Below, in pieces: positions 19,781-57,223 of a stretch of 64,000 nucleotides of DNA. The DNA is from Streptomyces mirabilis. GTDB taxonomy: Bacteria > Actinomycetota > Actinomycetes > Streptomycetales > Streptomycetaceae. The stretch covers positions 434,001 to 498,000 of the forward strand of contig NZ_CP074103.1 in NCBI RefSeq assembly GCF_018310535.1. Direction: 5' to 3'. Both the position numbers and the translations under genes were made by a program. Within the stretch, counting starts at the first letter, position 1, and the number at the start of each line of letters is the position of its first letter. The notes below the pieces were generated by a model. The model worked only from the letters and a program-made list of their open reading frames with translations, did not search any database and had not been told where the DNA came from.

Positions 19781-20120
19781 GGGAGTTCTCCGGAAGGGGG
19801 GGGCATGGGGGAGCTGCAGTGCAGCTCCAAGCGGTGTGCGTTGGAGGGGAAGCAGCGCCCTCAACACGGACAAGATTACATATCGAAACGCGAATAAGCA
19901 ACAACAGTCGTAAGTTCGTGCAGCTCTCCCACCCTCGGGGGAAGCAGGCCACCGCCCACGCCGGACCGCCGCTCCTCACGCCTCACGCGGGCGATGGGCC
20001 GGAGCCCCGGAATGATCATCCCGCGCGGGAGAGCGCGGACCAGCCGGTGGAGCGGATCCTCAGCCGACGCCGTCCGCTGCGCACCGCGCACCGGACGGGG
20101 ACATCAGCCGCCGCCGGTGG
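19781..20120. other. Intergenic region holding operon 1 promoter
   Basis: This 340-base stretch contains the conserved promoter motif at 19873-19903 in a short AT-richer patch, and about 200 bases upstream of it where I see no gene. Confidence 0.6.
19873..19903 (-). promoter_or_regulatory. Conserved promoter motif, site 1
   Basis: On the minus strand TTGCTT (19896-19901) and TAATCT (19873-19878) are separated by exactly 17 bases. The 27-base core (19877-19903; on the plus strand TACAT, two bases, then CGAAA and GCAACA) matches sites 2 and 3 at the same spacing. It reads into the gene starting at 19780. Confidence 0.75.
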
Positions 20121-22810: not shown

Positions 22811-22841
22811 AACTTACATCTTGAAACCAGAACAAGCAACA
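22811..22841 (-). promoter_or_regulatory. Conserved promoter motif, site 2
   Basis: On the minus strand TTGCTT (22834-22839) and TAAGTT (22811-22816) are 17 bases apart. The core 22815-22841 aligns base for base with sites 1 and 3 (plus-strand TACAT, two bases, TGAAA, three bases, GAA, then GCAACA). It drives operon 2 and lies in the 265-base divergent region in front of tap. Confidence 0.75.
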
Positions 22842-22941
22842 ACCATAATGCACATTGAAATGCAAACAGAACTTGAAATCGGCGGTCGGTGCGGGTACGT
22901 TGGATTCGCGTTAGATTCTGTTTTTGAGGGTGGAGGTGGAA

Positions 22942-25494: not shown

Positions 25495-25516
25495 ACCGTA
25501 GGGAAGCTGACTGACC

Positions 25517-26092
25517 GTGGGACTGATCGAAGACCGCCTGGAAGAGGCCGCCGAGACCGCCTACTCCCAGCCGATCCCCAAGACGCTCGGCGCGCGGATC
25601 CGCTTTCTGCTCAAGCAGGAGAAGGGCGTCAGCCGCGCCGAGGCCGCCCGCGCGGTCGCCGAGAAGATCGGCAAATCCCAGCGCACCGTCGAGCGCTACC
25701 GCGACGACGAGATCAAGGCCGCGAAGCCCGAGACCGCCGCCCTCATCGAGGCCACGGTCAAGCAGCTCTGGCAGCCGATCGTCAAGGCGAAGAAGCTCCA
25801 GGCCGCCGTCACCACCGGCGGCATCAAAGTGGACGTAAGAGGGAAATTCGGGTTCAAGTCCCCCAAGGGCACCACCAACGACCCCCGCTACCGCCGCCTC
25901 ACCCGCCGCCTGGACGCCGCCACCGCCGCAGCCCTCTTCGAAGCCAAAGAGGCCGGCGCCTCGGAGGAAGACCTCGCCCAGATCGTCGCCGACGGGCTGC
26001 GGGACGACTACTTCACCGACGGCGGCTCGCGGGCCACCTCTCTTCAGTCGGTCGCACTGACCGGCATCGACCACATCAAGTTCAGCATCTGA
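25517..26092 (+). CDS. tpg: Telomere terminal protein Tpg
   Basis: The 191-residue protein has the Tpg N-terminus (MGLIEDRLEE), a helix-turn-helix (residues about 38-60, SQRTVERY) and the conserved GTTNDPRYRRLT region at 118-129, where the priming threonine lies in characterised Tpg proteins. Tpg becomes covalently attached to the 5' ends of linear Streptomyces replicons and primes fill-in synthesis. The size matches the usual ~185 residues. It starts with GTG just after tap and is followed by a helicase gene 38 bases later. Confidence 0.92.
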   Translation: MGLIEDRLEEAAETAYSQPIPKTLGARIRFLLKQEKGVSRAEAARAVAEKIGKSQRTVERYRDDEIKAAKPETAALIEATVKQLWQPIVKAKKLQAAVTTGGIKVDVRGKFGFKSPKGTTNDPRYRRLTRRLDAATAAALFEAKEAGASEEDLAQIVADGLRDDYFTDGGSRATSLQSVALTGIDHIKFSI

Positions 26093-26130
26093 CCCGCCGC
26101 CCGCACCCGGCTGAAAGGACCGGCCACCCC

Positions 26131-28530
26131 GTGACCGCGACCACCACCGCCCCACCGCCCAGGATCAGGCTGCGCCCGCACCAGTCCAAGGCCGTCCACG
26201 CCGCGCACACCGCGCTGCGCCTGACCGCCCGGATCTCCGTCGTGATGGCCTGCGGCACCGGCAAGACGTACGTCGCCGCGCGCACCGCCGCCCGTGTCGC
26301 CCCCCAGGGCACCCGGCTGGTGCTGCTGCCCACTCTGGAGCTCCTCGCCCAGACCATCGACGACTGGCGCACCGCCGGCATGACCGGGCCCGTGCTCGCC
26401 CTGTGCTCCAAGCGCCCCAACACCGCGGGCGAGCCCGTCGCGTTCACTACCGACCCGGCCGCCCTGGCCGCCACCGTCCACCAGAACCCCGGCCTGACGG
26501 TCTTCGCCACCTACCACTCCCTGCACCGCGTCCAGTACGCCCACACCCACTTCGCTCTCCCCGCCTGGTCGCTGGTGGCAGTCGACGAAGCCCACCGCAC
26601 CAGTGGTGACCTGGGAAAACGCTGGGCCGCCGTCCACGACGACGAACTGATCCCCGCGCACAAGCGGCTCTATCTCACCGCCACCCCGAGGATCTGGTCG
26701 GCCGGCGAGCCCGGTGACGACGAGGACGACTCGCTCGTCGCGTCCATGGACAACCCGGCTCTCTACGGCGACACCTGCTTTCGCCTCCCGCTCGCCGAGG
26801 CCATCGACGAAGACCTCCTGGCCGACTACCGGGTCGTCGTCATGGAGGTGAACGAGGCGACCATCCGCACCCGGCTCGGGATCTCCGACATGGCCACCGA
26901 AGCCGAACTGCGCCAGGCCGCCCTCCAGATCGCCGTCCTGCGCGCCATGGCCGAGCTCGATCTGCGCCGCGTCGTGAGCTTCCACCACCGTGTGGCCGAC
27001 GCCCACGCCTTCGCCGACACCCTCCGCGAGACGGCCGCCCTCCTCTACGCGCTGGACGAGACCGGAACCGGCTGCCCCGACCCGGGAGAACTGTGGGCGG
27101 CCGGGCTCGACGGCAACCAGGACCCCGCCTACCGACGCGAGCTCCTGGACCGCTTCGACGGCCGCCCGGGCGCATTCCTCGCGCCGGCCCTCCGCACGGT
27201 GATCGCGAACGCTCGCCTTCTCGGCGAGGGCGTCAACATCCCCAGCATCGACACCGTGGTCTTCGCCGATCCCAAGGAATCGATCGTCGACACGGTCCAG
27301 GCCGTCGGCCGCGCCCTTCGACAAAAGCCTGGCCAGGGCAAGAAGGCCACCTTGATCGTCCCCGTCTACGTCGCCCCCGGCGAGGACGCCGACGACCTCA
27401 TGGGCTCCAACCTGTACCGCCCGCTCTGGCGGGTCCTCCAGGCGCTGCGTGCACACGACGACCGCATCGCCGACCGTCTCGCCGTCCCCCAACAGCCCTC
27501 CTACCCGCAGCCGGAGGACGAGCAGGACGACGCGAGCGTGCCCGTCGACGTCGTCTTCGACCGGCCCTTCCCCGCCGACACCATCGCCCAGGCCTTTCGG
27601 CTGCGCGTCCTGCACCCCCGCGAAGCGTCCTTCCGGCGCGGTCTGGAAGCCGCCACCGTCTACCAGCAGGCCCACGGGCACCTCGATGTCCCCCGGCTCT
27701 ACGACGATGCGGGCGGCTTCGCGCTGGGCCGCTGGATCAACCGGGCACGCAAGGCGTACGCGGCCGGCACCCTCAAGCCCTCCCAGATCAAGTCCCTGGA
27801 ACACCTCGGCATGATCTGGAACCTCCAGACCCAGGCCGCCGAACGCGGACTCCTCCACGCCCGCAGCTGGGCCGCCCGCCGCGGCCATCTCGCCGTTCCC
27901 AGCGACGAGATGATCGGCGACTACGCCTTCGGCCGCTGGCTCACCAACCGCCGAGCCGCCGCCCGCACCCGCGCGGACAACGGACTCGAACCCGACCCCA
28001 CCGACACCGCACTCGCCGAGATCGACCCGTACTGGAACCCGCCGTGGCCGATCACCTGGCAGCGCCTCTACTACACCGCCCGCACCTACGCCGAAGCCAG
28101 CATCACGCTCGACGACCTCCCCGCCGACTTCATCACCGACGACGACGAGCCCCTCGGTGAATGGGTCGCGGCGCAGAGCACCGAATACAGCACACTCCAT
28201 CCCGAGCAGCTCCGGCTCGTGAGCGAGCTGGGCATCACCCTGATCGAACCCGACGATGAGCCGGCGCAGCCCACCGGCCGAGCCGCCCGCCAGCAGCGGC
28301 AGCTGAACCAGGGCCTGGCGGCCGTCGCCGCCTTCCGGGACCGCGAAGGTCACGTCCTCATCCATCAGCGCGACACCGTCACCGTCGACGGCGAGGAGTT
28401 CAAGGTCGGCCAGTGGCTCAAGAACCTCCGCCGACGTTGGGACAGCCTGCCGCCCGAACACGTTCAGGCCGTCACCGCCGCGGGCCTCACCCGCCACCCA
28501 CAGACACCTGAGGCCGCGGTCAGCGGCTGA
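26131..28530 (+). CDS. Superfamily-2 DEAD/DEAH helicase with helicase-associated (HA) repeats
   Basis: The 799-residue protein has Walker A (ACGTGKT, about residues 45-52), a DEAH box (VDEAHR, about 151) and the motif VI region (QAVGRALR). The C-terminal third carries about three helicase-associated repeats of the form G-HL-VP ... G-WI-N-R-A. Such helicases are common near telomeres and on linear plasmids of Streptomyces. Following tap and tpg with a 38-base gap, it is probably in the same transcript and may help conjugal transfer or end processing. The start is GTG with GAAAGGA upstream. Confidence 0.88.
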   Translation: MTATTTAPPPRIRLRPHQSKAVHAAHTALRLTARISVVMACGTGKTYVAARTAARVAPQGTRLVLLPTLELLAQTIDDWRTAGMTGPVLALCSKRPNTAGEPVAFTTDPAALAATVHQNPGLTVFATYHSLHRVQYAHTHFALPAWSLVAVDEAHRTSGDLGKRWAAVHDDELIPAHKRLYLTATPRIWSAGEPGDDEDDSLVASMDNPALYGDTCFRLPLAEAIDEDLLADYRVVVMEVNEATIRTRLGISDMATEAELRQAALQIAVLRAMAELDLRRVVSFHHRVADAHAFADTLRETAALLYALDETGTGCPDPGELWAAGLDGNQDPAYRRELLDRFDGRPGAFLAPALRTVIANARLLGEGVNIPSIDTVVFADPKESIVDTVQAVGRALRQKPGQGKKATLIVPVYVAPGEDADDLMGSNLYRPLWRVLQALRAHDDRIADRLAVPQQPSYPQPEDEQDDASVPVDVVFDRPFPADTIAQAFRLRVLHPREASFRRGLEAATVYQQAHGHLDVPRLYDDAGGFALGRWINRARKAYAAGTLKPSQIKSLEHLGMIWNLQTQAAERGLLHARSWAARRGHLAVPSDEMIGDYAFGRWLTNRRAAARTRADNGLEPDPTDTALAEIDPYWNPPWPITWQRLYYTARTYAEASITLDDLPADFITDDDEPLGEWVAAQSTEYSTLHPEQLRLVSELGITLIEPDDEPAQPTGRAARQQRQLNQGLAAVAAFRDREGHVLIHQRDTVTVDGEEFKVGQWLKNLRRRWDSLPPEHVQAVTAAGLTRHPQTPEAAVSG

Positions 28531-33817: not shown

Positions 33818-35383
33818 ATGACCCCGCTCACCCTGGAGAGCGGGGAGTTGGACTTGGCAGGCAGCGGCCGACCGCGGAAGGATCCGCGACAGGCGGAAGA
33901 GATCATGCGCGCGGCCGGCCTGGAGCCGCTGGAGCCCTACCGCGGCAGCTCCGCCCCGTGGCGGTGCCGCCATACGGCGTGCGGGCGGGAGGTCACCCCC
34001 CGCCTGAGCAACATCACCAAGGGACAGCGCGGCTGCGTCTACTGCTCCGGACACGCCCGGATCGAACCCGAGGCCGCAGCCGCGGTGATGCGGGCGGCCG
34101 GGCTGGAGCCGCTCGAGCCGTACCCCGGCGGCAGCGACCGGAAGTGGCGGTGCCGTCACCGCGCATGCGGACGCGAGGTCACACCCACCTATGTCCGGAT
34201 CAACTCCGGTGCCGGGCCCTGCCGGTGGTGCGCACCGAACGCGCCGGTCGACCCCGACGTTGCGGCGGCCGACATGCGGGCCGCGGGCCTGGACCCCCTC
34301 GGCCCGTACCCGGGAGTGGACACGCCCTGGCCGGTCCGATGTCGGGCGTGCGGAGCGCCAGGGGCCCCCACGCTGGGCTCCATCCGTCAGGGGCAGGGCG
34401 GCTGCTACCCCTGCGGCCGGCGCAAGGCCAACGAGTCGATGCGCCACGACGCCGAGACCGCGGCCGCGGTGATGCGGGCGGCGGGCCTGGAGCCGCTGGA
34501 GCCGTACCCCGGCACGGAGTTCGCGTGGAAGAGCCGCTGCATCACGTGCGGGTCCATCGTCTCCCCGCGCCTGGGTTCCCTGACCGGCCGGAGCCGGCGT
34601 CCTGGCTGCAAGCGGTGCGCCGACCGGGCCAACGGTGCAGCACAGCGCCACGACGAGGACCTGGCCGTCGCCGAGATGCGCGAGCACGGATTCGAACCCC
34701 AGGAGCCGTACCGCGGGGTCAAGTACCCCTGGCGGTGCCTGTGCCACGGCTGCGGCACCATCACCTCACCGACCTTCGGATCCATCCTCGCCGGCCAGAG
34801 CGGATGCCGGCGCTGCGCCGACCTCCGCTCCGCCGCCGCACGACGGGAAGACCCCGAGCGCGCCGCCGCCTCCATGCGCGAGGCCGGTCTCGAGCCCCTG
34901 GAGCCCTACACCACGTCCATGACGCCCTGGCGCTGCCGCTGCACCACCTGCGGCCGCACCTCGACTCCCACCCTGTCCAAGATCCGCAGCGGCCGCGGAT
35001 GCAAGTACTGCGCCCGCTTCGGCTTCGACCGTGCCGCGCCCGCCCGCGTCTACGTCGTCACCCACGTACAGCACGGCGCCGTCAAGATCGGCGTCGCCGG
35101 CGCTCGTCAGCGAAACGACCGCATCGGCCAGCACCGCCGCCTCGGTTGGACCCTGTACTACGAGCACCACGTGCCCACCGGCGACGACGCCCTGTCCGTC
35201 GAACAGACGATCCTGCGGCGCCTGCGCGCCGCCGGGCACGGCGTCTTCCTCACCGCCGCCCAGTTGCCCAACGGCTGGACCGAGACGTTCGACGCCGCCC
35301 GCGTCACCGCCGCCGAGCTTCGGGACGCGATCCGAGAACACCAGACCGCACCAACCCCTCCTCAGCCGTTGACCCTGTTCTAG
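33818..35383 (+). CDS. Six zinc-finger-like repeats fused to a GIY-YIG-like nuclease domain
   Basis: The 521-residue protein consists of six repeats of about 62-66 residues beginning near residues 30, 91, 153, 219, 287 and 353. Each runs M-R-x-A-G-L-E-P-L-E-P-Y, then W-x-C-R-C-x2-C-G, a SP-x-L/I segment and GC-x2-C, i.e. a treble-clef-like zinc site. Residues about 409-490 (RVYVVTH ... VKIGVAG, then R426/R432 and E462 in VEQTILRRL) match a GIY-YIG-type nuclease such as the MUG113/T5orf172 group. I infer a nuclease with a modular DNA-recognition array. The start ATG follows GAGG. TATGCT at 33795-33800 could be its -10. Confidence 0.75.
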   Translation: MTPLTLESGELDLAGSGRPRKDPRQAEEIMRAAGLEPLEPYRGSSAPWRCRHTACGREVTPRLSNITKGQRGCVYCSGHARIEPEAAAAVMRAAGLEPLEPYPGGSDRKWRCRHRACGREVTPTYVRINSGAGPCRWCAPNAPVDPDVAAADMRAAGLDPLGPYPGVDTPWPVRCRACGAPGAPTLGSIRQGQGGCYPCGRRKANESMRHDAETAAAVMRAAGLEPLEPYPGTEFAWKSRCITCGSIVSPRLGSLTGRSRRPGCKRCADRANGAAQRHDEDLAVAEMREHGFEPQEPYRGVKYPWRCLCHGCGTITSPTFGSILAGQSGCRRCADLRSAAARREDPERAAASMREAGLEPLEPYTTSMTPWRCRCTTCGRTSTPTLSKIRSGRGCKYCARFGFDRAAPARVYVVTHVQHGAVKIGVAGARQRNDRIGQHRRLGWTLYYEHHVPTGDDALSVEQTILRRLRAAGHGVFLTAAQLPNGWTETFDAARVTAAELRDAIREHQTAPTPPQPLTLF

Positions 35384-35759: not shown

Positions 35760-37046
35760 ATGGGTGCAAGCGCGTGGGACACCGAGACCAAGCGGCCGAT
35801 CTATGTCGATCTGGGCGTGGAGGGGCTACCGATCGGCCTGGCGGGCGGCCGGTACCTGTGCAGAGCCTGCGCGGATCCACTGATCCTCAGGGGCGCCCGG
35901 CCCGAAGCGAAGGTCACGCCGCACTTCTCCCACCAGGAAGGAGGTCCGTGCCGACTGGCAGAACGGGAAGCGCAGATCGACGCGGACGACCAGGTCGTCA
36001 TCCAGCTGAGCCACCAGATTCGCGCCCTGCCCGGCATCACCGGCTGCACCCTCGCCTCCCCCGGAGACGACCCTCACGACCCGATCGGACTCCCGCCGGT
36101 CGTCATCGCACAGTGCGGCGACACCGCCGTTGTCATCGAACGCCCCGGCACGCTGCCCAGCCCTCAGGCAGTCCGCCGACGCATCCTCGCGGTACGCGAG
36201 CACCACGCCGGAGCCGCACACGTCTGGTTCCTGCGCCGCGACCCTGGCCAATTCGGCCAACTCCCCAGCCACAAGGTCCGCCTGAGCGGACGGGACGTCG
36301 AGCACCAGCGTGTCGCCCCCACCGAGCAGCAGCTGGCCATCCTCGACGCCGGCGGCCATGTGTACTGGCTCGACGGGAAGCTCGTGCTGGTGCCCTACGG
36401 CTACCACGCCTTCCGGCACCCCGCCCGCCCCGAACAGGACTGGACGGCCTGGCCGAAATGGCCGCGCCACAAGGACCCCCGGGACGACTGGCGGATCAGC
36501 AAGCCCCGTCCGGCCCCCACCGCGGACTGCTGGGGCCTGGTCCCGATCGCCCTGTCCTCGCTGACCCGCACCCGGGCGGTCTTCCACCCCGCCGACGCGC
36601 ACAAGGTCATGGACGAGCTGTATGCCGCCCAGGAGGGCCGGCACCGCTGGCGCGACCGGCGAGCCCGCGAGGTGTACGCCGAGCGGCACGCTCCGCCCAC
36701 TCCTCAGCCCGCCGCGCCGATCCCGACGGCCGAAGCCCCCGCCACCGAGGCTGAGACAGATCAGCACACCGCCCCACAACTTCCGCAGCCGGCCGACCAG
36801 CACGATGCCGAGGCACCCCCGCGCGGGAACGTGACCCCGTCCGTCGCCTCGTCCGCGAACCTCGCGCCGGCCTTCCCACCTCCACCTGTGGCCCCGCCCA
36901 CGATTCCCCCGCCCCCACAGCTGCCCCCCGCGCCCCCCGCGCCCCCCGCGCCCCCCGCGCCCCCCGCGCCCCCCGCGCCCCGCGCGCCCCGGCAACGCCG
37001 ATGGGTAGACACCCTCCGCATGCTGCGCCGACGGCGTGAGCGTTGA
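35760..37046 (+). CDS. CoiA-like protein with proline-rich tail
   Basis: The N-terminus carries the competence-protein CoiA zinc signature: C34-x2-C37, an arginine loop and HFSH (55-58), with another Cys at 64. A nuclease-like core may follow (VVIERPGTL ... RILAVREHH), but the catalytic residues of CoiA are not clearly conserved. After about residue 300 the chain is low-complexity and ends in a run of (PPA) repeats and a basic tail. CoiA-type proteins act on incoming or recombining DNA. CATGAT six bases ahead of the ATG suggests a leaderless transcript. Confidence 0.65.
   Translation: MGASAWDTETKRPIYVDLGVEGLPIGLAGGRYLCRACADPLILRGARPEAKVTPHFSHQEGGPCRLAEREAQIDADDQVVIQLSHQIRALPGITGCTLASPGDDPHDPIGLPPVVIAQCGDTAVVIERPGTLPSPQAVRRRILAVREHHAGAAHVWFLRRDPGQFGQLPSHKVRLSGRDVEHQRVAPTEQQLAILDAGGHVYWLDGKLVLVPYGYHAFRHPARPEQDWTAWPKWPRHKDPRDDWRISKPRPAPTADCWGLVPIALSSLTRTRAVFHPADAHKVMDELYAAQEGRHRWRDRRAREVYAERHAPPTPQPAAPIPTAEAPATEAETDQHTAPQLPQPADQHDAEAPPRGNVTPSVASSANLAPAFPPPPVAPPTIPPPPQLPPAPPAPPAPPAPPAPPAPRAPRQRRWVDTLRMLRRRRER
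36924..36978. repeat. 9-base tandem repeat encoding a (PPA) tail
   Basis: About six copies of a CCCCCCGCG-type 9-mer are in frame and encode Ala-Pro-Pro repeats at the end of the CoiA-like protein. The number of copies is likely to vary between relatives. Confidence 0.85.
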
Positions 37047-37117
37047 CGAACTCCGGAAAAGCAGTGGGCCCGGTCCGAAGTCGTACCGATACTGGCGACG
37101 GAGGAAGTGAGGCGCCC

Positions 37118-38797
37118 ATGCCGCAAGTAGAACCGTGTGTGCTCGACGTGCTCACGGAAGCGGCGGCGAACGCCGCTTCCTGCGAGGACATCGCCGCCGT
37201 CCTCGCGGCCGCGGACACCGGCACGAACGCGGCCGCCGAGCAGCAGCGCGATGCGCTACTCGCCGCGCTGCGTCTCCGACCCGCCGGGACTGGCAGGGCG
37301 CAGACGTTCACCGGGATCGTCCTCGGCCGGCCGTCTGCGAGCCTGTCCGACGTCGCCGCCGACCAGATGGAGACCTGGAGCGCGTACGCCGAGGCCGTGA
37401 CCAACTCCTTTGTCCGGGGACGCCTCCATCACCTTCTGCTCGTCGCAGGACACGGTCGCAAGGTCGACCGCATCCGGGGCGCGGCCGCCGGGTACCTGGA
37501 CGCGGTGCCGCTTTTGCTCGCCGCCCGCAAGCGCTTCCCCGGCCTGGTGGGTGCGACCGAGTGTCTGCGCTGGGCCGGAGACCTCGCCCGGACCTATAAC
37601 CAGACCGACCTGTGCAAGCGCGTCACCGACGACACGGTCGCCCTGGCCGAGCGAGTCCTTGCCGCTCCCGAGGACGAGACGGCGATCATGGCCGATCTCC
37701 TGGAGGGGCTGCGTGTCCAGCGCTACGACATCACCGACTTCGCAGAACGCGCCGCCCGTCGGTACGCCGGCGATGTGCACGCCCGCGTCGGATTCCTCAA
37801 GCTGATACGGGCAGAAGCGTCCGAGTTCCGCCGAGTCGGCATCGACACCGAGATCGTCAGCGCCCTCCTCGACGCCGCCGATGCCGACACGGGGTTCCGT
37901 CGCCACAACCTGCTGACCCAGGCCGCGACCATCGCGCGGGATCGAGGTCTGCCCGAGCTGAGGGTGCGTGCCGAGATGGCCCTGCAACAGACCGATCCGG
38001 ACTCCCTGGGATGGACTCGAATCCGTCGCCCGCTCATCCCCCCGCCGGGACTTTTCGCCGGGGCCCGGGCGCACGTCGACGCCGCCCCAAGCCTGCGAGA
38101 CGCACTGTGGCGAACCGCGCAAGACGCCCATCCGGCGATGCGCGAGCACCCCGACGACGTGGGCCTCCTGGACGGTCTGCTCCGGATCCCGCGCACGCGC
38201 ATCAACACCGCCGGACCCGTCCAGGTCGCTCCGCCCGTCGCCGCCGCCGACGACCACCTCGTCGGACTGCAGGTCCTCGCGATGGACTTCCTCGGGCACC
38301 TCGCCGCCCATCAGCTCGACCACATCCACGAGCGCTTCGATCCGGACGAGGCCGAGCTGATCGGCGCCCTCGCCCATGACGCCGTCTTGCCAAAGGCGCG
38401 CGCCCGAACGCTGGCCTACGCCTTCCGGTACTTCTGGCTGGGGGAGTTCGACGCAGCGGTATGCATCGCCCTGCCTCAGGTGGAGCAGATCCTCAGACAG
38501 CTCCTGCGCTGGCAAGTCTCGATCTTGTCCGTGGCCAAGGGCGAGTCCCCCGGGACCGTCGACCAGCTGGGAGGACTCCTCCGCAGCATGCCGGCCGCCG
38601 GGTATCCCGCGGACTGGAGCCGCGCCCTGGAGCTGCTCCTGGTCGACCCCGACCGCGGGATGAACCTGCGCAACGACGTTTGCCACGGCCTGATCGACAC
38701 CCCGCCCAAGCACCGCGTCGCGCTCATCCTCCAGGCGGCGCTGTACCTGCTCAGCTACGCCCACGGGCATCGAACCCTCGCCCCGCCCGCTCCCTGA
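37118..38797 (+). CDS. Helical protein with C-terminal HEPN-type motif (DUF4209-like)
   Basis: The 559-residue protein is largely helical. Its last ~120 residues resemble DUF4209, ending in R518-N-D-V-C-H523-G, which fits the R-x4-6-H catalytic motif of HEPN RNases. HEPN proteins are common toxins or effectors in anti-phage systems. The ATG at 37118 follows GGAGGAAGTGAGG. It lies 71 bases after the CoiA-like gene and could share its transcript. Whether it cuts RNA is inference from a short motif. Confidence 0.65.
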   Translation: MPQVEPCVLDVLTEAAANAASCEDIAAVLAAADTGTNAAAEQQRDALLAALRLRPAGTGRAQTFTGIVLGRPSASLSDVAADQMETWSAYAEAVTNSFVRGRLHHLLLVAGHGRKVDRIRGAAAGYLDAVPLLLAARKRFPGLVGATECLRWAGDLARTYNQTDLCKRVTDDTVALAERVLAAPEDETAIMADLLEGLRVQRYDITDFAERAARRYAGDVHARVGFLKLIRAEASEFRRVGIDTEIVSALLDAADADTGFRRHNLLTQAATIARDRGLPELRVRAEMALQQTDPDSLGWTRIRRPLIPPPGLFAGARAHVDAAPSLRDALWRTAQDAHPAMREHPDDVGLLDGLLRIPRTRINTAGPVQVAPPVAAADDHLVGLQVLAMDFLGHLAAHQLDHIHERFDPDEAELIGALAHDAVLPKARARTLAYAFRYFWLGEFDAAVCIALPQVEQILRQLLRWQVSILSVAKGESPGTVDQLGGLLRSMPAAGYPADWSRALELLLVDPDRGMNLRNDVCHGLIDTPPKHRVALILQAALYLLSYAHGHRTLAPPAP

Positions 38798-44042: not shown

Positions 44043-44073
44043 AAAGTACATCCTGAAATATGAATACGCAACA
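44043..44073 (-). promoter_or_regulatory. Conserved promoter motif, site 3
   Basis: On the minus strand TTGCGT (44066-44071) and TACTTT (44043-44048) are 17 bases apart. The core 44047-44073 aligns with sites 1 and 2. It reads into the 210-residue gene, divergently from the dsRBD-SNF2 gene. Confidence 0.75.
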
Positions 44074-44207: not shown

Positions 44208-47200
44208 TTGTCCATCGACCGCCTGCAGCCCATCAGCCCCGCAGCGCTGGCCGCTCGTACGTCCGGACCCGGCATCCCCGCCTCACGCACCGCACCCCGT
44301 GCCGACGGCACCTCCTCGATGAGTACCGACGCCTTCCGCGCAGCACTGAAGCGCGGCATCGCGCGCGATGCCGCGCCAACCGTTGCCGCGGCGGCGGCCG
44401 CCGAAGCGGCGCGCCGGCTCACTCAGGGCCGCCTGGAGGTATCCGACCTGCGGGTGCTGCTCCTGGAGCCCCCCGGCTCGGAGGTCTGGGCGGCGGTTCG
44501 CCGTGCAGCGCTCACCACGGTCACCGCCAGCCCGGAACTGGCGCCGAGCATCATCTCCATGCACGCTCAGCTGCTCCGGCTGGCGGCGGCGACCGTCCGC
44601 GAGGGCCAGGACGCCGGGAGCCAGGACGGCTTTCACGCGCAGGCCACGCTCACGGTCGACGACCAGCAGATCAGCGGCAGCATTCAGTGCTCCCGCACCC
44701 GCAAGGGCGCCCGGCAGCAGGCCATGACCACGCTCATCGCGGCGATCGCCGGCCTTCCCGACCCGCTCGCCGACCGTGCCGTAGAGGCATGGGGCGCATC
44801 TGCCAGCCCCGCCGTCCCGCCGCCAGCCCCGGCACCTCGCGCCGGCTCGGCACCCGCTGCGGGCCGCAGCCCCATCTCGGTCCTTCACGAGTTCGCCCAG
44901 GCCGGGCACACCACGACACCCGACTTCCGGGTCACGGGGGCCGCTTCCGCCTTCACCGCCACAGTCACCGCCGTCCACCGCGGGCAGAAACTCGCCGCGA
45001 CGGGAGAGGGAACGAGCAAACAGAGCGCCCGCGCGGCCGCGGCCAGCAGCCTCCTGGAAATGCTTCAGCAAGCACTGGCCGCCGACGTCCCCCCAGCTCC
45101 CGCGCCCGAGCCTCCCACCCCGTCCAACGCCCCGGCGCTGCTTCCACCGCTCGGCCTCGCCCGTACACAGGAGCCACCCCCCGCCGTTCCCGCCAGCGCA
45201 GCCGAGTTGTTCCGCGCGCACCACGTCCTCGAGCAGGCCCTGGCCGACGGCGTGGCGCTCACCCTGCTGCCCGCCCGCCACCCCGCCCACAGCACCTGGA
45301 TGATCTTCCGGCCCGACGGCGTACCGCTCCCCGACCTCGAACTACTGCCGGCGCCCCTTCAGCCGGTCACCCGCGACCTCGTCCTGGCCGGGACCGGTGG
45401 CATCATGCCGCGCCGCGCCACCGTGACCGGCATGGCCGTCCCGCTCCGACTCGCCCTCCCCCTGATCCTCGATCCCCGCCAGGGAGAGCACGCCTCGGTC
45501 ACCGGATGGCGCCACCCTCTGCGCCTGGCCCTCACGTGCGTGGCGCAGCAGCGCGTCCACCCCGCCCTGACCGACCAAGGCCAGGGCTGCTGGCGCATCG
45601 GCCCGATCACCGAAGCCCTGCACACCGCCGTCACCGACGTCGCCGCGCTGATGGCCCCCGAAGGACACTGCCTCCTCGCCGGTACCAACCCCATCCGCGT
45701 CCCGTCCCCCGAACACGCGGTGTGGCCCCTGCTCGACGCCGTCGCCGACACCATGCTCCGCACCCCCGGCACCCCCACCCTCCTGGGATCCGGCCCCCAC
45801 ACCGGGCCCGCCGGCCAGGACGCCGAGGCGACACCCGAGTTGTGGAGGTGGGCGGACGCGATCGAGGACACCGTCGATCCCCACCCCACCCCGCGCCTGG
45901 TGCTGCGCATCAAGGAACCCGACACCGCGGGCACCGTCCCGTCCGCACCTGCCGTCCTGCACCTCGCCGCCCCCGACCAGCAGGACACCGTTGCAGCGAT
46001 CACTGTCTGGGACGGGGCTCAGCACACCCGGGCCGAGCTCACCCCCGCCGCCCTGCCCGCTGTACGCCGCGCGCTGCGCCGGGCCGCCCGCCACTACCCG
46101 CCCCTGGCGCACCTCGCCGCCCAGGAACGCCCCCACCGCATCTCCCTGACCGCCCCAGACCTGGCCCGCCTCCACGACCACGCCACCGCCCCGCTCGCCG
46201 AGTCCGGCATCACCGTGCAGTGGCCCCCCACCCTCCTCGGCGCCCTCACCGCCACCGCCGTCATCGGCACCCACGACCCCGGCGACGAGGACGAGTCCCC
46301 GACGGGTGGCGGATACCTCGCACTGGAACGCCTGGTGGACTGCCGCTGGCACATCAACCTCGACGGTGACCCGCTGACCGAGCAGGAGATGACCGCGCTG
46401 GCCGACGCCGCGTGGCCGCTGATCCAACTGCGAGGCCGCTGGCTCCTGGTCGACGCCGACACCGCTCGCCGCGCCCGCGCCCGAGACCTCGCGCCCCTGC
46501 CATCCCTCGACGCGCTGACCGCGGCCCTGTCCGGCACCCTCACCCTCAATGGCGAAGCCCTCGAAGCCCGGCCCGCCGGCGCCCTGGCCACCCTGGTCGG
46601 CACGCTGCGCGGCGCCCCCGACGAGACCCGGGCCGTGCCCCCGCCGGCCGCCCTGAAAGCGACGCTGCGCCACTACCAGCAGCGCGCCCTGACCTGGCTC
46701 GCGAACATGGTCGACCTGGGCTTCGGCACGCTGCTCGCGGACGACATGGGCCTCGGCAAGACCCTGACGACCATCGCCCTGCACCTGAACCGCATCGAGA
46801 CCACCCGCGCCGCCGGCCCGACGCTAGTGGTCTGCCCGGCCTCCCTGATCGCGAACTGGGAGCGCGAGATCACCCGCTTCGCGCCCTCCACCACGGTCGT
46901 GCGCTACCACGGCGCCGGCCGGACCCTCGACCGTGACGCCCTCGACCCCAACACAGTCGTCATCACCACCTACGGCACCGTCCGCCGTGACACCACCTCC
47001 CTCGCCGCCGCCGAGTGGGGACTGGTCATCGCGGACGAGGCCCAGCACATCAAGAACCCCACCTCGGCCACTGCCAAGGCACTGCGCACCGTGCCCGCCC
47101 GCGGCCGGATCGCGGTCACCGGCACCCCGGTGGAGAACAACATCACCGAGCTGTGGGCCATCCTCGACTGGACCAACCCCTCCCTCTTCGGCACCCGCAA

Positions 47201-48086
47201 AGCCTTCCGCACCCGCTACGGCGCCGTGGAGAAGGACTCCGCCTCACCGGCCGCCGCGCAACTCGCCCGGCTCGTCGGCCCGTTCATGCTGCGACGGCGC
47301 AAGACGGACCCCGGCATCGCCCCCGAACTGCCCGGCAAAGTGCACCACCACCGCATCGTCGCCCTCACCGAAGAACAGATCGGCCTGTACGAGGCATCCG
47401 TCCGCGACACCATGGACAAGATCGCCACCAGCACCGGAATCCAGCGCCGCGGCCTCGTCCTCAAACTGCTCCAGGCCCTGCGCCAGATCTGCAACACCCC
47501 CAGCCTCTACCTCAAGGAGCCGCTGGAGGACGCCGACCCGGCGGGCCTCGCCTGCCGCTCGGGCAAGCTGGCGGCCCTGGACGACCTCATGCCCACCCTG
47601 GCCGAGCGCGGCGAAGCGTCTCTGATCTTCACGGGATACGTGCAGATGGGCCGCATCCTTGAGCACCACCTCCGGGCCCGCGGCCGCTCGGTGCGTTTCC
47701 TCCACGGCGGAACGCCCCCGGCCCGCCGCCAGGACCTCGTCGACGCCTTCCAGAACGACCCGGACCCGGCCCCGGTCTTCGTGCTGTCGGTCAAGGCGGC
47801 CGGCACCGGACTCACCCTCACCCGGGCCGAGCACGTCGTCCACTACGACCGGCCCTGGAACCCCGCCGTCGAGGACCAGGCGACCGACCGCGCCCACCGC
47901 ATCGGCCAGCACCGCACCGTCCAGGTCCACCACCTGATCACCGAGGGCACCGTGGAAGACCACATCAACGAACTCCTCGCCCGCAAACGCGCCCTGACCG
48001 AGGCGGTCCTCACCTCCGGCGAGAGCGCCCTCGCCGACCTCGACGACACCGAACTCAACGCGCTCGTGGCCCTGGCCGCCCGATGA
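44208..48086 (+). CDS. SNF2-family helicase with N-terminal double-stranded-RNA-binding domain
   Basis: The ~1,292-residue protein has a well-formed dsRBD at about 221-290 (PISVLHEFAQ, then F-TV-V, GEGTSK, SAR-AAAASSLLEML) and a weaker copy at about 135-182. Residues about 290-800 are unassigned. The last ~470 residues form a full SNF2 motor: DDMGLGKT (845-852), DEAQ (943-946), TGTPVENN, and the C-terminal lobe with LHGGTP, KAAGTGLTLT and DRAHRIGQ. SNF2 proteins translocate on duplex nucleic acid. The dsRBD implies RNA or hybrid recognition. A TTG at 44208 with GGGGGAG six bases before is the likely start. An ATG lies at 44319. The stop overlaps the SWIM gene. Confidence 0.85.
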   Translation: MSIDRLQPISPAALAARTSGPGIPASRTAPRADGTSSMSTDAFRAALKRGIARDAAPTVAAAAAAEAARRLTQGRLEVSDLRVLLLEPPGSEVWAAVRRAALTTVTASPELAPSIISMHAQLLRLAAATVREGQDAGSQDGFHAQATLTVDDQQISGSIQCSRTRKGARQQAMTTLIAAIAGLPDPLADRAVEAWGASASPAVPPPAPAPRAGSAPAAGRSPISVLHEFAQAGHTTTPDFRVTGAASAFTATVTAVHRGQKLAATGEGTSKQSARAAAASSLLEMLQQALAADVPPAPAPEPPTPSNAPALLPPLGLARTQEPPPAVPASAAELFRAHHVLEQALADGVALTLLPARHPAHSTWMIFRPDGVPLPDLELLPAPLQPVTRDLVLAGTGGIMPRRATVTGMAVPLRLALPLILDPRQGEHASVTGWRHPLRLALTCVAQQRVHPALTDQGQGCWRIGPITEALHTAVTDVAALMAPEGHCLLAGTNPIRVPSPEHAVWPLLDAVADTMLRTPGTPTLLGSGPHTGPAGQDAEATPELWRWADAIEDTVDPHPTPRLVLRIKEPDTAGTVPSAPAVLHLAAPDQQDTVAAITVWDGAQHTRAELTPAALPAVRRALRRAARHYPPLAHLAAQERPHRISLTAPDLARLHDHATAPLAESGITVQWPPTLLGALTATAVIGTHDPGDEDESPTGGGYLALERLVDCRWHINLDGDPLTEQEMTALADAAWPLIQLRGRWLLVDADTARRARARDLAPLPSLDALTAALSGTLTLNGEALEARPAGALATLVGTLRGAPDETRAVPPPAALKATLRHYQQRALTWLANMVDLGFGTLLADDMGLGKTLTTIALHLNRIETTRAAGPTLVVCPASLIANWEREITRFAPSTTVVRYHGAGRTLDRDALDPNTVVITTYGTVRRDTTSLAAAEWGLVIADEAQHIKNPTSATAKALRTVPARGRIAVTGTPVENNITELWAILDWTNPSLFGTRKAFRTRYGAVEKDSASPAAAQLARLVGPFMLRRRKTDPGIAPELPGKVHHHRIVALTEEQIGLYEASVRDTMDKIATSTGIQRRGLVLKLLQALRQICNTPSLYLKEPLEDADPAGLACRSGKLAALDDLMPTLAERGEASLIFTGYVQMGRILEHHLRARGRSVRFLHGGTPPARRQDLVDAFQNDPDPAPVFVLSVKAAGTGLTLTRAEHVVHYDRPWNPAVEDQATDRAHRIGQHRTVQVHHLITEGTVEDHINELLARKRALTEAVLTSGESALADLDDTELNALVALAAR

Positions 48087-49297
48087 CCGGCTCCGGCAAC
48101 ACCCGCAACATGGCCCCCCTCGTGGCCGCCTGGAAGCAGGCATTCCACCTGGCGACCAACGGCTCCGGCTCCTACGGCAAGGGCCTCAACCTCCACCGCA
48201 ACGGCGGCGTCGCGCAGATCCACGCGCAACCCGGGCGCCTGGCCGCCGCCGTCACCGCGAAGAAGGCCACCCACCAAGCCGTCCTGTTCCTGCCCGAACT
48301 GACCGACACTCAGTGGGACACCCTCGCCGGCCGCCTCGCCGGCAACGCCCAAGCCGTCGCCGACCTCCTGGCCAACCGGGTCCCTGCGGCCATCGCCGAC
48401 CCCGGCCATGCCGGCGGCATCGCCATCGTCCCGGCAGCCGAAGAGATCACCTTCGCCTGCTCCTGCCCCACCGGCCACGCCGGCCGCGTGTGCGACCACA
48501 GCGGCGCCCTCGGCCACGCCGTCACCGACCGCCTCGCCGTCACGGCCTCCATCCTGCTCGGCGCCCGCGGCATGTCCGCCCGCAGCCTCGCCGTCCTCGT
48601 CCGTGACCTCATCGCCGAAACCGACCCCGGCACCCTCCCGGCAGACGACGACGGAACCGTCCGCGCCGACCAGCTCTACTCCCTGGCAGCCCACCGGCCA
48701 CCGCACTCCCCGCCCGACCTCGACCTCGATCCCATCGTCCCGGTCACCACCGACCTCGACGACCCGCCCCTCCCCGGGCCCCGCGCCCAAGACCTGGCCT
48801 GGATGACCCAGGACGCCGCCGATCGCGCCCGAGCGCTCCTGACAGCCATCCCGGACCCACCCCACGACGACCTCGCCGACACAGTTCGAATCCTCGCCAG
48901 CCCTCACGGCATCGACCGGCTACCCGCCGCCGCCGACGCCACTGGCCTCAGCGAAACCACGCTGCGCGCGATGATGATCGGCTACCGCCACGGCGGCCCG
49001 GCCGGCGCCCATGCCACCCTCGCCGCAGCCACGGTCCCGCCGAGCACCCTGGAACAGGCTGCAGAGGCCCTCCGCGCCTCCCGCGCCTTCGCCTTCGGCA
49101 TCATCGACATCGCCGACGGAGCGATCACCGACTCGACCGCAGGCGTCCAGATCCGGCCCGGTCTCGACGGTCGGTGGCACCCCTTCACGCTCAGGCGAGC
49201 CGATGAGTGGCGTCCCGCCCCCGGAGCCTGCGACGATCCCGCCGAAGCATTCCGCGCGGCGCGGCGCGCCCGCGCCGCACGACCGCTCAGCCGGTAG
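48083..49297 (+). CDS. SWIM zinc-finger protein, partner of SNF2 helicase
   Basis: The 404-residue protein has the SWIM signature CxC-n-CxH (C126, C128, C137, H139) preceded by a beta-rich region. SWIM proteins are often encoded next to SNF2 helicases in actinobacteria and probably act as nucleic-acid-binding partners. The ATG shares ATGA with the SNF2 stop, so expression is coupled. The C-terminal half is helical and without assignment. Confidence 0.85.
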   Translation: MTGSGNTRNMAPLVAAWKQAFHLATNGSGSYGKGLNLHRNGGVAQIHAQPGRLAAAVTAKKATHQAVLFLPELTDTQWDTLAGRLAGNAQAVADLLANRVPAAIADPGHAGGIAIVPAAEEITFACSCPTGHAGRVCDHSGALGHAVTDRLAVTASILLGARGMSARSLAVLVRDLIAETDPGTLPADDDGTVRADQLYSLAAHRPPHSPPDLDLDPIVPVTTDLDDPPLPGPRAQDLAWMTQDAADRARALLTAIPDPPHDDLADTVRILASPHGIDRLPAAADATGLSETTLRAMMIGYRHGGPAGAHATLAAATVPPSTLEQAAEALRASRAFAFGIIDIADGAITDSTAGVQIRPGLDGRWHPFTLRRADEWRPAPGACDDPAEAFRAARRARAARPLSR

Positions 49298-53376: not shown

Positions 53377-55368
53377 ATGGGCCTGCACATTTCGCGGATC
53401 GAGATACGCAACTTCCGCAACTTCCGGCACCTGGTCATCGACGACTTCCCCGCCCACGCCGTAGTCGTCGGCGAGAACGGCGTCGGCAAGTCGAACCTGC
53501 TGGAAGCGATCCGCCTGGTCCTCGACCCGTCCATCTCCGACGCACGGCGCATGCTGCGCGAGGAAGACATCTGGGAAGGACACCCCGCGGGCCTGGCCGG
53601 CGGAGCCGAAGTGACCATCGTGGTCGAACTCCGAGGCTTCGACGACGACGCCGACGCCAAGAGCATTCTGTCCAGCGCCGCGGTGGACTTCGACCCCTAC
53701 GTAGCCCGGCTGACCTACCGCTTCGCCCCGCGGACGGAGGTGGCAACGGCCGATGGCTCCCGCGTGCAGCCGACCGGCCGGCCGCTGACCGCGAAGGACT
53801 ACGACGTCGTCGTCTTCGCCGGCGACCGCGAGACCAACGACGTGCGCGCCATCCGCCGCGAAGTTGCCCTGCGCGTCCTGCCGGCCCTGCGAGACGCCGA
53901 GGCAGACCTGCACAACTGGCGCCGCAGCCCTATGAGGGACCTCCTCGAACGGCTCCCCCTTGACCCGGTCAACCTGGAAGCCACCGCCTCGGCCATGGCC
54001 ACGGCAGTCGACCAGCTCACCAAGGACGACAACGTCGCCAAGCTGGAAGGACACCTGACGGACCGGCTCGGCGCGATGTTCGGGCCGCGCCTGGCGGTCC
54101 AACCCACCCTGGGGTTCGCCTCCTCCAAGCCGGACGAACTGATCCGCGCCGTACGCCTCTTCTTCGACACGGCACGCCGCAGAAGCATCTCCGACACCAG
54201 CCTGGGCAGCGCCAACGTCATCTACCTCGGCCTGCTGCTCGAAGCCCTCAGCCAGCAGCGAGACGACGAGGAATTCATCGCCACCCTCGTCGCCGTGGAG
54301 GAGCCCGAAGCCCACCTCCACGTCACCCTCCAGCGGCACCTCTTCGGGTACCTGCTGCGCAGCGGACCGTCGCTCGTCCTCACCACCCACAGTCCGCACA
54401 TCGCCGCCGTCGCCCCGGTCCGCTCCTTCATCGTGCTGCGCGCAACGGAGAACGGCACTACCGGTGCCACAACGTCCGCCCTCCCCGTCACCAGCGAGCA
54501 GGCCGCGGACCTGGAGCGCTACCTCGACGTCAGCCGCGCCGAGGTCCTCTTCGCCTCCGCCGTCGTCCTGGTCGAAGGACTGGCCGAGCTGTACATCCTC
54601 CCCGCCCTGGCCGAAGCCGCCGGCTTCGACCTCGACGCCTACGGCACCGTGGTGGCCAGCGTCCACGGCACCGACTTCAAGCCCTACCGGGCACTCCTCG
54701 GCCCGAAGGGCCTCGACACCCCCCACGTGGTCATCACCGACGGAGACGCCGCCCGCGACAAGCGCGGCCGACGGGAAGCCGGCCTCAAGCGAGGCGCGAA
54801 CCTCCACCCCGACGAAGCCCGCGGCAAGGCGCTCCGCGACCAGATTGCCCGCCTGCCGGAAACCGGCGCGGCCGACTACCAAACGACCCGCGATCCCCTC
54901 GCCTCAGAACTCCAGGACCACGGCGTCTACGTCGGCGCCCAGACCCTGGAGACCGACCTGTGCTCCATGTTCGGCGAGGAGATCATCCAAGCCTTCAAGG
55001 AGCTGAACGGCAACGCCACCGCGATCGACGACGTGAGCCGCGGGGTCGCCAACGAGCTGAACACGACGATCGACCCCGAGCTGCGGAAGAAGATGCTCAA
55101 GCGCATCGGCGACCTCGGCAAGGGCCGCTTCGCCCAGCGCCTCGCCGCGCACATCGCCCAGGTCGACCTGGACGCCCGGATCCGGTCCGAAGCCAACATC
55201 ACGGACGACCTTGTCCCCCTGGACGAGCACGCCCTGCGCCGCCTGGGCACGGCGTCCTACCTCTTCCTGGCCATGGAACGCATCAGCCGCGCGGCCCGCG
55301 GAACCTCACTACTCACCGGCCACACGGCGCCACAGGCCAACGGGCAGGGCAGCGATGCAGGTCAGTGA
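53377..55368 (+). CDS. gajA: OLD-family ATP-dependent endonuclease, GajA-like
   Basis: The 663-residue protein has an ABC-type ATPase with Walker A GENGVGKS (32-39), Walker B VAVEEPEAHLHV and a HSPH switch, followed by a TOPRIM nuclease with VEG (399-401) and DGD (455-457). This is the class 2 OLD architecture of GajA, the nuclease of Gabija anti-phage systems, which cleaves DNA when nucleotide levels fall. It overlaps the helicase gene by 14 bases. The length is somewhat above the usual ~580 residues. AAGGGG precedes the ATG by five bases. Confidence 0.85.
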   Translation: MGLHISRIEIRNFRNFRHLVIDDFPAHAVVVGENGVGKSNLLEAIRLVLDPSISDARRMLREEDIWEGHPAGLAGGAEVTIVVELRGFDDDADAKSILSSAAVDFDPYVARLTYRFAPRTEVATADGSRVQPTGRPLTAKDYDVVVFAGDRETNDVRAIRREVALRVLPALRDAEADLHNWRRSPMRDLLERLPLDPVNLEATASAMATAVDQLTKDDNVAKLEGHLTDRLGAMFGPRLAVQPTLGFASSKPDELIRAVRLFFDTARRRSISDTSLGSANVIYLGLLLEALSQQRDDEEFIATLVAVEEPEAHLHVTLQRHLFGYLLRSGPSLVLTTHSPHIAAVAPVRSFIVLRATENGTTGATTSALPVTSEQAADLERYLDVSRAEVLFASAVVLVEGLAELYILPALAEAAGFDLDAYGTVVASVHGTDFKPYRALLGPKGLDTPHVVITDGDAARDKRGRREAGLKRGANLHPDEARGKALRDQIARLPETGAADYQTTRDPLASELQDHGVYVGAQTLETDLCSMFGEEIIQAFKELNGNATAIDDVSRGVANELNTTIDPELRKKMLKRIGDLGKGRFAQRLAAHIAQVDLDARIRSEANITDDLVPLDEHALRRLGTASYLFLAMERISRAARGTSLLTGHTAPQANGQGSDAGQ

Positions 55369-57223
55369 CACCCTGCTCGCAGAGCTCGACAGTCTGCACC
55401 CCAGGCAGCGGACCGCCGTTCTCCACGACGGCAACGTCGTACTGCGGGCCGGGCCCGGAAGCGGGAAGACACGCACCCTCGTCGCCCGGATCGCCTACGT
55501 GCTCCAGACGCAGATCTCGGCCTTCCGCGGCGTGGCCTGCATCACCTACACCAACGCGGCGGCCGAGGAGATCCGCCGCCGCGTCCTGCGCAGCGGCGTG
55601 CGCGCCGAAGGGCGGATCACCTGCTCCACCGTGCACGCCTTTTGCCTGAACGAGATCCTCCGCGCCTTCGCACACCTGACCGGGCAGTCGGCACCTCAAG
55701 CAGGACAGGTCCTCAACAAGGCGGCCACCGAAGCGCTTCTGCAGCGGTGCTTCGACCAGGCCGGCATCGGCGAGGTCCTCGCCCAGCACCGCATGCCCCA
55801 GAGCACCCGGATTCGCCGGGCCCTGGCCTGCAACGAGGACCTGGACAGCTTCGACCCGCGGGAAGTCCAGGCGGCACGCCTCTACGAGGAACAGCTCATC
55901 CTCCGAGGCGAGATCGACTTCGAGGCCATGGTCACCCGGGCCGTGCACATCGTCAGGGAGCACGCACATGTCCGCGACCTCCTGCGCTCCCGCTTTCCCC
56001 ACCTCGTCGTCGACGAGTACCAGGACCTCGGCGGAGTCCTCCACGAACTCGTGCTCGCGCTGCGCGACCTGGCCGGCATCACCGTCTTCGCCGTCGGGGA
56101 CACCGACCAGTCTGTCTACGGATTCACCGGAGCCGACGCCAAGTACCTGACCGAGCTGGCAGGCCGAGCGGACTTCCGCGATCTCGAACTCGAGGTCAAC
56201 TACCGCAGCGGCCAGGACATCATCACCGCCGCCGAAGCCGCCCTCGGCCTTTCCCGAGGCCGCCTCGCCCGCGAAGGGGCACCCCCAGGCGACGTCAACC
56301 TCGAACAGGTCGAGGGAGGGCTCGCGGACCACGCCCGAGTGACCTGCGACCTGGTCGAACAGGCGCAGAACAAGGGCATCAGCCCCGAGCGGATCGCCAT
56401 CCTCTACCCCGCTCGCGGTCGCCTGCTCGACGAAGTCCGCAGCGAGCTCACCCGACGCGAGCTGGACTTCCGGCACGAAGGTGACGACAAGCTCCCCGCC
56501 GGCAGCCTTTCCCGCTTCGTCCAGCGGTGCGCCAGCCGCGCCGTCACCAACTACCAGATCCACACCGCATCCGGCGCCGATCGCGCCGACATGCTGCGCC
56601 GTACGCAGGCGCCGTCACTTGCCTCCCTGGCCCGCGCCTTCACCACGCTGCGTACCGAGGCCCAGCTCGCCCCGTCCCCCTCGCGGCTCTTCGTGCCCAG
56701 GGCTCTGCAACTGTGCCTCGACCCCGAGGAGCTCTACCCAGCCGAAGCCCCTGCCCTCGCCTGGCTGGAGCAGCTGCGCGCCGGCTTGGCTCTTGACGAG
56801 ATAGCCGCGGGACACCCCGACCAGGACAACACGAGCAGCCTCGACCGCATGGCCGACCTGTGCAGGTCCAAGGACTTTCTGCTGCAGGACCTCGCGCGCG
56901 GCGAGGAAGTCATCGGGAAGGTACTGCTCGCCACCTACCACGCAGCCAAGGGCCGAGAGTTCGACACCGTGATCCTGCCGGGCCTCCTCCAGGGCATCAT
57001 TCCGCGTGATGTCCCGAGCGGGAAGCAGTGGCGGAAACCCACGGAGACGGAGCTCGCGGAGCAGAGGCGCACCTTCTACGTCGCCCTCACCCGTGCCGAG
57101 TCGACCGTGACCATGATCGTCGGCCCCGGGTACGAGACCAGGAACGGATACTGGATGTCGTTGGGGCCCTCAGCCTTCGTGATCGAGATGGCGCGGCGGC
57201 TCTTCCCCGACGAACAGACCTGA
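55355..57223 (+). CDS. gajB: UvrD-type helicase, GajB-like partner
   Basis: The 622-residue protein has SF1 motifs: Walker A AGPGSGKT (32-39), VVDEYQD, GDTDQSVYGF, and near the end VALTRAE. It is the second gene of the OLD-UvrD pair and starts inside the end of the nuclease gene, as in Gabija operons. GajB acts with GajA in anti-phage defence. It is longer than the typical ~490 residues, with an extra helical stretch after about residue 370. Confidence 0.83.
   Translation: MQVSDTLLAELDSLHPRQRTAVLHDGNVVLRAGPGSGKTRTLVARIAYVLQTQISAFRGVACITYTNAAAEEIRRRVLRSGVRAEGRITCSTVHAFCLNEILRAFAHLTGQSAPQAGQVLNKAATEALLQRCFDQAGIGEVLAQHRMPQSTRIRRALACNEDLDSFDPREVQAARLYEEQLILRGEIDFEAMVTRAVHIVREHAHVRDLLRSRFPHLVVDEYQDLGGVLHELVLALRDLAGITVFAVGDTDQSVYGFTGADAKYLTELAGRADFRDLELEVNYRSGQDIITAAEAALGLSRGRLAREGAPPGDVNLEQVEGGLADHARVTCDLVEQAQNKGISPERIAILYPARGRLLDEVRSELTRRELDFRHEGDDKLPAGSLSRFVQRCASRAVTNYQIHTASGADRADMLRRTQAPSLASLARAFTTLRTEAQLAPSPSRLFVPRALQLCLDPEELYPAEAPALAWLEQLRAGLALDEIAAGHPDQDNTSSLDRMADLCRSKDFLLQDLARGEEVIGKVLLATYHAAKGREFDTVILPGLLQGIIPRDVPSGKQWRKPTETELAEQRRTFYVALTRAESTVTMIVGPGYETRNGYWMSLGPSAFVIEMARRLFPDEQT

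Follow-up and report, generated by a model that had tools for sequence, protein, structure and literature searches.

What would double-stranded-RNA-binding domains (dsRBDs) do on an SNF2 ATPase, a motor of the double-stranded DNA (dsDNA) translocase class? The question is raised by a gene in the 64,000-nt stretch of Streptomyces mirabilis DNA analysed here (the window; positions 434001-498000 of a 517,982-bp contig). The gene starts at a TTG and encodes 1292 aa (44208-48086; forward strand, as are its domains and its partner gene), an extent supported by the open reading frame (ORF), by an N-terminus that is kept in relatives, and by Pfam. In its product, a tandem dsRBD array is followed by a complete SNF2 motor, and a gene for a SWIM-motif protein overlaps its end. 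The best explanation is that the protein would be a plasmid-borne dsDNA translocase with the array as an RNA-reading front end. Judging from sequence and structural models, the array probably binds RNA, a claim given a probability of roughly 0.8; that it also recruits the motor, or switches it on, at double-stranded or folded RNA is put at somewhat better than even odds. The basis for this explanation is the predicted folds, conserved contact residues, intact motor motifs, coupling of the two genes, and the finding of the module on two enzymes that are unrelated.

An earlier note, made from the sequence alone, had claimed a well-formed dsRBD at residues 221-290, and both the HMM and the structure checks bear it out. 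Residues 222-286 match PF00035 with 28.4 bits (cut-off 23), and AlphaFold2 predicts a textbook dsRBD, with the alpha-beta-beta-beta-alpha fold, over residues 218-290 (dsRBD2; 44859-45077). Among the fold matches listed (VIA-align; residues 215-292, and 23-149 of a second model), those to dsRBD2 are solved dsRBDs in the PDB, some of them bound to double-stranded RNA (dsRNA). The weaker domain that the note placed ahead of it was recovered as an atypical dsRBD (dsRBD1, residues 108-182; 44529-44753), with the predicted fold and no PF00035 match in the window protein itself. This is preceded by a helical part (residues 38-107; 44319-44528; AlphaFold2), and the two together, about 70 helical residues plus a divergent dsRBD, make up a repeating unit: the same helical part recurs before an atypical dsRBD in three groups of SNF2 proteins (A, B, and C, described below) and in fusions to RNB exoribonucleases. 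In one of these fusions (L026), a dsrm match of 40.9 bits at residues 630-698 lies within a unit (559-699), and thus coincides with the atypical dsRBD of that unit; this supports dsRBD1 as a true dsRBD. Since an hhalign comparison of dsRBD1 with dsRBD2 within group A gives a probability of only 4.2%, from few effective sequences, the kinship of the two domains is supported instead by their fold and by groups B, C, and the RNB proteins.

Three regions of a dsRBD contact RNA: region 1 (E), region 2 (GPxH), and region 3 (KKxAK). In the group A alignment of 40 rows (the window protein and 39 relatives), E228 and Q231 of region 1 and K271, A274, and R275 of region 3 of dsRBD2 are invariant, region 3 reading K[QR]xAR in every row; in dsRBD1, R165 and R169 are kept in 40/40 and K166 in 39/40. 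The region-2 loop is absent from group A. Group C proteins, including that of Sphaerimonospora, retain it as GPPH or GPAH, and their dsrm scores are 32.6 (L030), 43.6 (P0088), and 48.0 bits (P0089).

The sequence-level observation that offers the best evidence for RNA binding by the array is its fusion to RNB exoribonucleases. The first link came from the N-terminus of group C, which matched “RNB domain-containing ribonuclease” proteins on two linear Streptomyces plasmids. A search with the array of L026 returned 30 proteins: 25 with RNB and dsrm domains (PF00773, PF00035), four SNF2 proteins, and one with dsrm only. L026 (813 aa) has an RNB domain at 18-309, units at 365-505 and 559-699, and a dsRBD at 728-806; L027 (618 aa) has RNB at 17-311, one unit at 367-507, and a dsRBD at 536-612. 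The motif D-x5-D-x-DDA, which we take to be the catalytic motif of RNB proteins, is kept within the first 120 residues of 24 of the 25 RNB-array proteins (P0095 is without it). RNB enzymes usually carry separate RNA-binding parts. Pfam (E ≤ 0.1) finds neither a cold-shock nor an S1 domain in L026 or L027, the pair of RNB proteins scanned, so the array appears to take the place of these parts. Among the matches listed, RNB-array and SNF2-array genes lie on different plasmid records (five RNB records, none of them among the 40 rows given by each of two other plasmid searches), though strain CAU 1734 has both kinds (P0074 and P0094) listed with one contig of 320,317 bases. The RNB-array gene of L026 is preceded by WGR, AAA_5, and VWA CoxE-like genes (2863-6787), possibly in one operon with the ribonuclease, and an annotated dndC (2931-4478) lies near the RNB-array gene of L027 on NZ_CP108678.1.

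The motor to which the array is joined in the window is complete, as the note had held. DUF3670, an SNF2-associated domain (46128-46517), is followed by the SNF2-related ATPase domain (PF00176; 46674-47507) and the Helicase_C lobe (47565-47906); both lobes have intact motor motifs, DDMGLGKT and DEAQ in the former and QATDRAHR in the latter being invariant in the 40 group A rows. Apart from SNF2/helicase-type domains, DUF3670, and dsrm, Pfam finds nothing in this protein, and in particular no nuclease domain. The note had guessed at an RNA-sensing or RNA-guided role. Sensing gains support from the contact residues of group A, the canonical dsRBDs of group C, and the RNB fusions; guidance does not, Pfam finding no guide-loading domain in the window SNF2 protein (a search of Rfam for a guide RNA was not made).

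The overlap with a SWIM gene, also claimed earlier, is an ATGA shared with the SNF2 stop codon: the partner gene (48083-49297) encodes 404 aa, and its product fits the SWIM motif CxCx(n)CxH with CSCPTGHAGRVCDH (48458-48499, found by motif search and counted from the translation), while Pfam gives no SWIM model for it at E ≤ 1. The downstream gene was read at 17 array-bearing SNF2 genes, five of group A (the window, L013, L014, L015, L056), ten B-like (L031, L032, L033, L046, L049-L054), and two of group C (L029, L030), and is a partner gene in 17/17. The motif search finds SWIM in 13 of these partners and not in L029, L030, L031, or L053. The partners of L029-L031 are short, with the C-terminal part alone kept; those of L032, L033, and L046 miss the C-terminal part; and that of L013 is split over two frames. 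From these counts, the SWIM finger is not obligatory, and the partner gene apparently is.

The dsRBD-SNF2 architecture is that of a recurrent actinobacterial family. A search with residues 40-350, which scored the 7990 candidates with most words in common, picked up 40 proteins. Thirty-nine of these have identities of 48-95% and come from Streptomyces, one Actinacidiphila, and other sources. A second search from the fortieth, P0040, gave 52 proteins, 47 of group B (P0040 included) and five of group C. By array HMMs, all 39 group A relatives have one unit and one dsRBD (for one, P0019, the record is incomplete and has no SNF2 domain); all 47 group B proteins have two units, and 45 a dsRBD, two being without a dsRBD match (46/47 have one at a looser threshold); and all five group C proteins have two units and one dsRBD (an earlier unit model saw a single unit in one of them). 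Array length therefore varies across the SNF2 relatives, from 1+1 (A) and 2+1 (B, C) to two units with two dsRBD-type repeats in L046, and probably also in L032 and L033, where the first repeat is a partial match; L053 has two units and no dsRBD match. On pFRL3 (L052, 1924-6170), the array is a separate 479-aa ORF upstream of, and overlapping, a 962-aa SNF2 ORF, representing either a split gene or a frameshift; on an Embleya plasmid (L028, 8530-13294), units and dsRBD/SNF2 are in different frames, the result of a broken gene or a sequencing error. A singleton or chance dsRBD is ruled out by the array in 39/39 group A relatives and by the predicted fold. Residues 36-331 match none of 50,697 phage records, which speaks against a phage origin of the array.

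Members beyond the Streptomycetaceae are found in Sphaerimonospora thailandensis (L030) and in an actinobacterial metagenome-assembled genome (L029), the two relatives among 208 stretches pattern-matched with a group C query. Unit profiles are present in five of 121 Streptomyces genomes, and in a sample of the phylum in one of 100, namely the window's own; two further matches, G011 and G018 (E 6.8e-4 and 3.0e-4), were not confirmed by the array profiles. So far, the array family is rare, accessory, and actinobacterial.

A tree of 34 motor regions recovers groups A and C (100/100 each), while B comprises several lineages and the deep branches are unsettled. The genome containing the window also has three chromosomal paralogues, at 46-48% identity, in which array HMMs find no array. 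A dsRBD on one chromosomal paralogue (L004), where the alignment began at residue 216, was considered and ruled out: the frame of L008 (956 aa) has no dsRBD and no array HMM match. The array-less chromosomal proteins and that of L055 group with the array-bearing P0085 (100/100). Since an array-less clade thus joins an array-bearing protein, the array may be old and later lost in the chromosomal line; independent gains are the other possibility.

As a working model, the array would bind double-stranded or strongly folded RNA, and the bound RNA would either bring the motor to its source DNA or transcription complex or turn the ATPase on. The motor and its co-translated SWIM partner could then clear RNA polymerase, R-loops, or further proteins off that DNA, for which SNF2 proteins and RapA offer a precedent. 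In the RNB-fused sister proteins, the same reader would deliver such RNA to a 3′-5′ exoribonuclease; that the same front part is fused to an RNA-degrading enzyme in relatives is what points to an RNA-directed machine. A broader version, speculative and rather unlikely, would have a portable dsRNA-reading module (unit repeats with a canonical dsRBD cap), carried in actinobacteria and on linear plasmids by SNF2-SWIM motors and 3′-5′ exoribonucleases, mount a joint, dsRNA-sensing response when transcription is antisense or foreign, with the motor directed at the DNA source and the exoribonuclease at the RNA.

Several known systems share parts of this arrangement. The DExH RNA helicases DHX9/MLE have tandem dsRBDs on an SF2 motor, and their dsRBDs are among the fold matches of the window array; the window motor is SNF2 instead of DExH, and the likeness considered here is that of the dsRBD fold. 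With the RNase II/R (RNB) family the tie runs through the sister proteins, the scanned pair of which differ in lacking cold-shock/S1 domains, and the window gene itself encodes no nuclease. SNF2-SWIM pairs are already known, and the NCBIfam model NF058637 (the SCO1167/SCO6262 family helicases, with DUF3670 and an SNF2 motor) covers the motor but not the array: the window protein scores 1029.7 bits, below the equivalog cut-off of 1200, over 928/932 model positions, the alignment beginning at residue 314 of a 1256-aa translation, past the array. RapA, which recycles RNA polymerase, is likewise of a bacterial SNF2 family, but the window protein's 46.8 bits to NF003426 are far under the cut-off of 576, and the tandem Tudor front of RapA described in PMC12839542 was not found in it by Pfam. 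SWIM-associated SWI2/SNF2 ATPases of mobile elements (PMC5512222) are also SNF2 motors on mobile DNA that come with a SWIM partner; the term “double-stranded RNA” does not appear in the text of that paper.

One alternative, possible though doubtful and already guessed at in the note, is counter-invader defence, in which dsRNA or folded transcripts of phages or plasmids would trigger the SNF2-SWIM motor, possibly together with neighbouring RNases. The accessory distribution (5/121 genomes) fits this, as does a Gabija pair 4 kb downstream (53377-57223; GajA 628.9 bits, with the OLD-like TOPRIM present, and GajB 584.3 bits). Neighbours of HEPN type point the same way: a DUF4209 protein in the window (37043-38797; 25.3 bits over 22.3, with an RNDVCH motif), and TIGR02391/Ymh proteins in three of seven plasmid SNF2 loci (L049-L055), where 2′-5′ RNA ligase family genes also occur in three of seven; DUF4209 and Ymh are classed as HEPN families in PMC3710099. 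However, these loci were hand-picked from rows 15-39 of the plasmid-record matches (3.5-kb flanks; L055 without an array), and the counts are small, have no control, and include related plasmids; Pfam confirmed two of the Ymh proteins and one 2′-5′ RNA ligase, and one Ymh copy (L049) is without R-x4-H. Defence matches of the SNF2 protein, from PADLOC (25 of 44 families listed) and NCBIfam, are all confined to the generic motor (residues 745-1252 in the 1256-aa translation). Those from NCBIfam also fall far under their whole-protein cut-offs: Zorya ZorD at 268.1 of 1500 bits, Dpd DpdE at 49.7 of 500, and DISARM DrmD at 90.2 of 950 and 86.7 of 610. A named defence family is rejected on these cut-offs. 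The group A gene moreover resembles plasmid backbone, with 13 of 848 plasmid records matching at ≥80% coverage; that no phage record matches the array is counted as neutral.

Another tentative alternative is plasmid upkeep, in which the plasmid's own transcription, or its telomere-proximal DNA, would be remodelled in an RNA-dependent way. Two genes of the window at 22924-26092, tap (812.4 bits against a cut-off of 600) and tpg (221.9 against 90), mark the 518-kb contig as a linear plasmid, and the SNF2 gene ends about 36 kb from its right end. The surrounding 24-kb block matches 47 records, none over 80%, and parts of it are kept in related plasmids (gene tables of pFRL5, pSCL3, and an S. xanthophaeus plasmid); in group A, the SNF2 gene looks like part of a backbone that a family of linear plasmids has in common. 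The plasmid also has its own promoter-like motif, TACATNNTGAAANNNNNATACGCAACA, perhaps marking a plasmid-only regulon: with ≤3 mismatches allowed, the 518-kb contig has 12 sites, and neither the 9.1-Mb contig nor a reversed control gives any. Weighing against upkeep, array-bearing SNF2 genes also lie on 7-10 Mb contigs (L031, L032, L046) and in non-streptomycete contigs, so that a telomere link is unnecessary; near L046 is a recombinase-like gene (our own sequence reading, with no family match behind it). Least probable, and quite unlikely, is that the dsRBDs read no RNA and serve protein-protein contacts, for example with the SWIM partner or in dimerisation: the best fold matches include several dsRBDs whose structures were determined in contact with protein (Miranda/Staufen dsRBD5, the Dicer-TRBP interface) and group A is missing the region-2 loop, but the K and R of region 3 are invariant in 40/40, the array recurs on RNB enzymes, and the array-less SNF2 gene of L055 likewise has a partner gene downstream.

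Within the window, the TACATNNTGAAANNNNNATACGCAACA motif occurs at 19877-19903, 22815-22841, and 44047-44073. The last site, conserved in five plasmids aligned, probably belongs to the gene divergent from the SNF2 gene (minus strand, a direction inferred from position). That it drives the SNF2 gene itself is less likely, all three sites being upstream of minus-strand genes, again with direction from position alone. The tap and tpg genes stand in a row with a helicase that has helicase-associated domains (22924-28530); in pSCL3, the SNF2 gene is preceded by a row of similar size (regulator, hypothetical protein, DEAD/DEAH helicase). A 67-nt repeat occurs six times at 33880-34915, with spacings of 183-204 nt, inside a 521-aa ORF, whose product is a protein with repeats of about 61-68 residues.

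Bacterial dsRNA recognition is known chiefly from RNase III. Among the matches listed from the open-access literature (subscription papers not covered), none describes a bacterial dsRBD-SNF2 or dsRBD-RNB fusion; DUF3670 appears together with SNF2 in no open-access paper among the five best matches, and the locus tags SCO6262, SCO6263, and SCO1167 in no title or abstract among those listed. A dsRBD array on a dsDNA motor and on an exoribonuclease makes dsRNA sensing in bacteria, and its coupling to remodelling or to RNA decay, directly testable, and the array offers biochemistry a way into the SNF2-SWIM pairs of Streptomyces.
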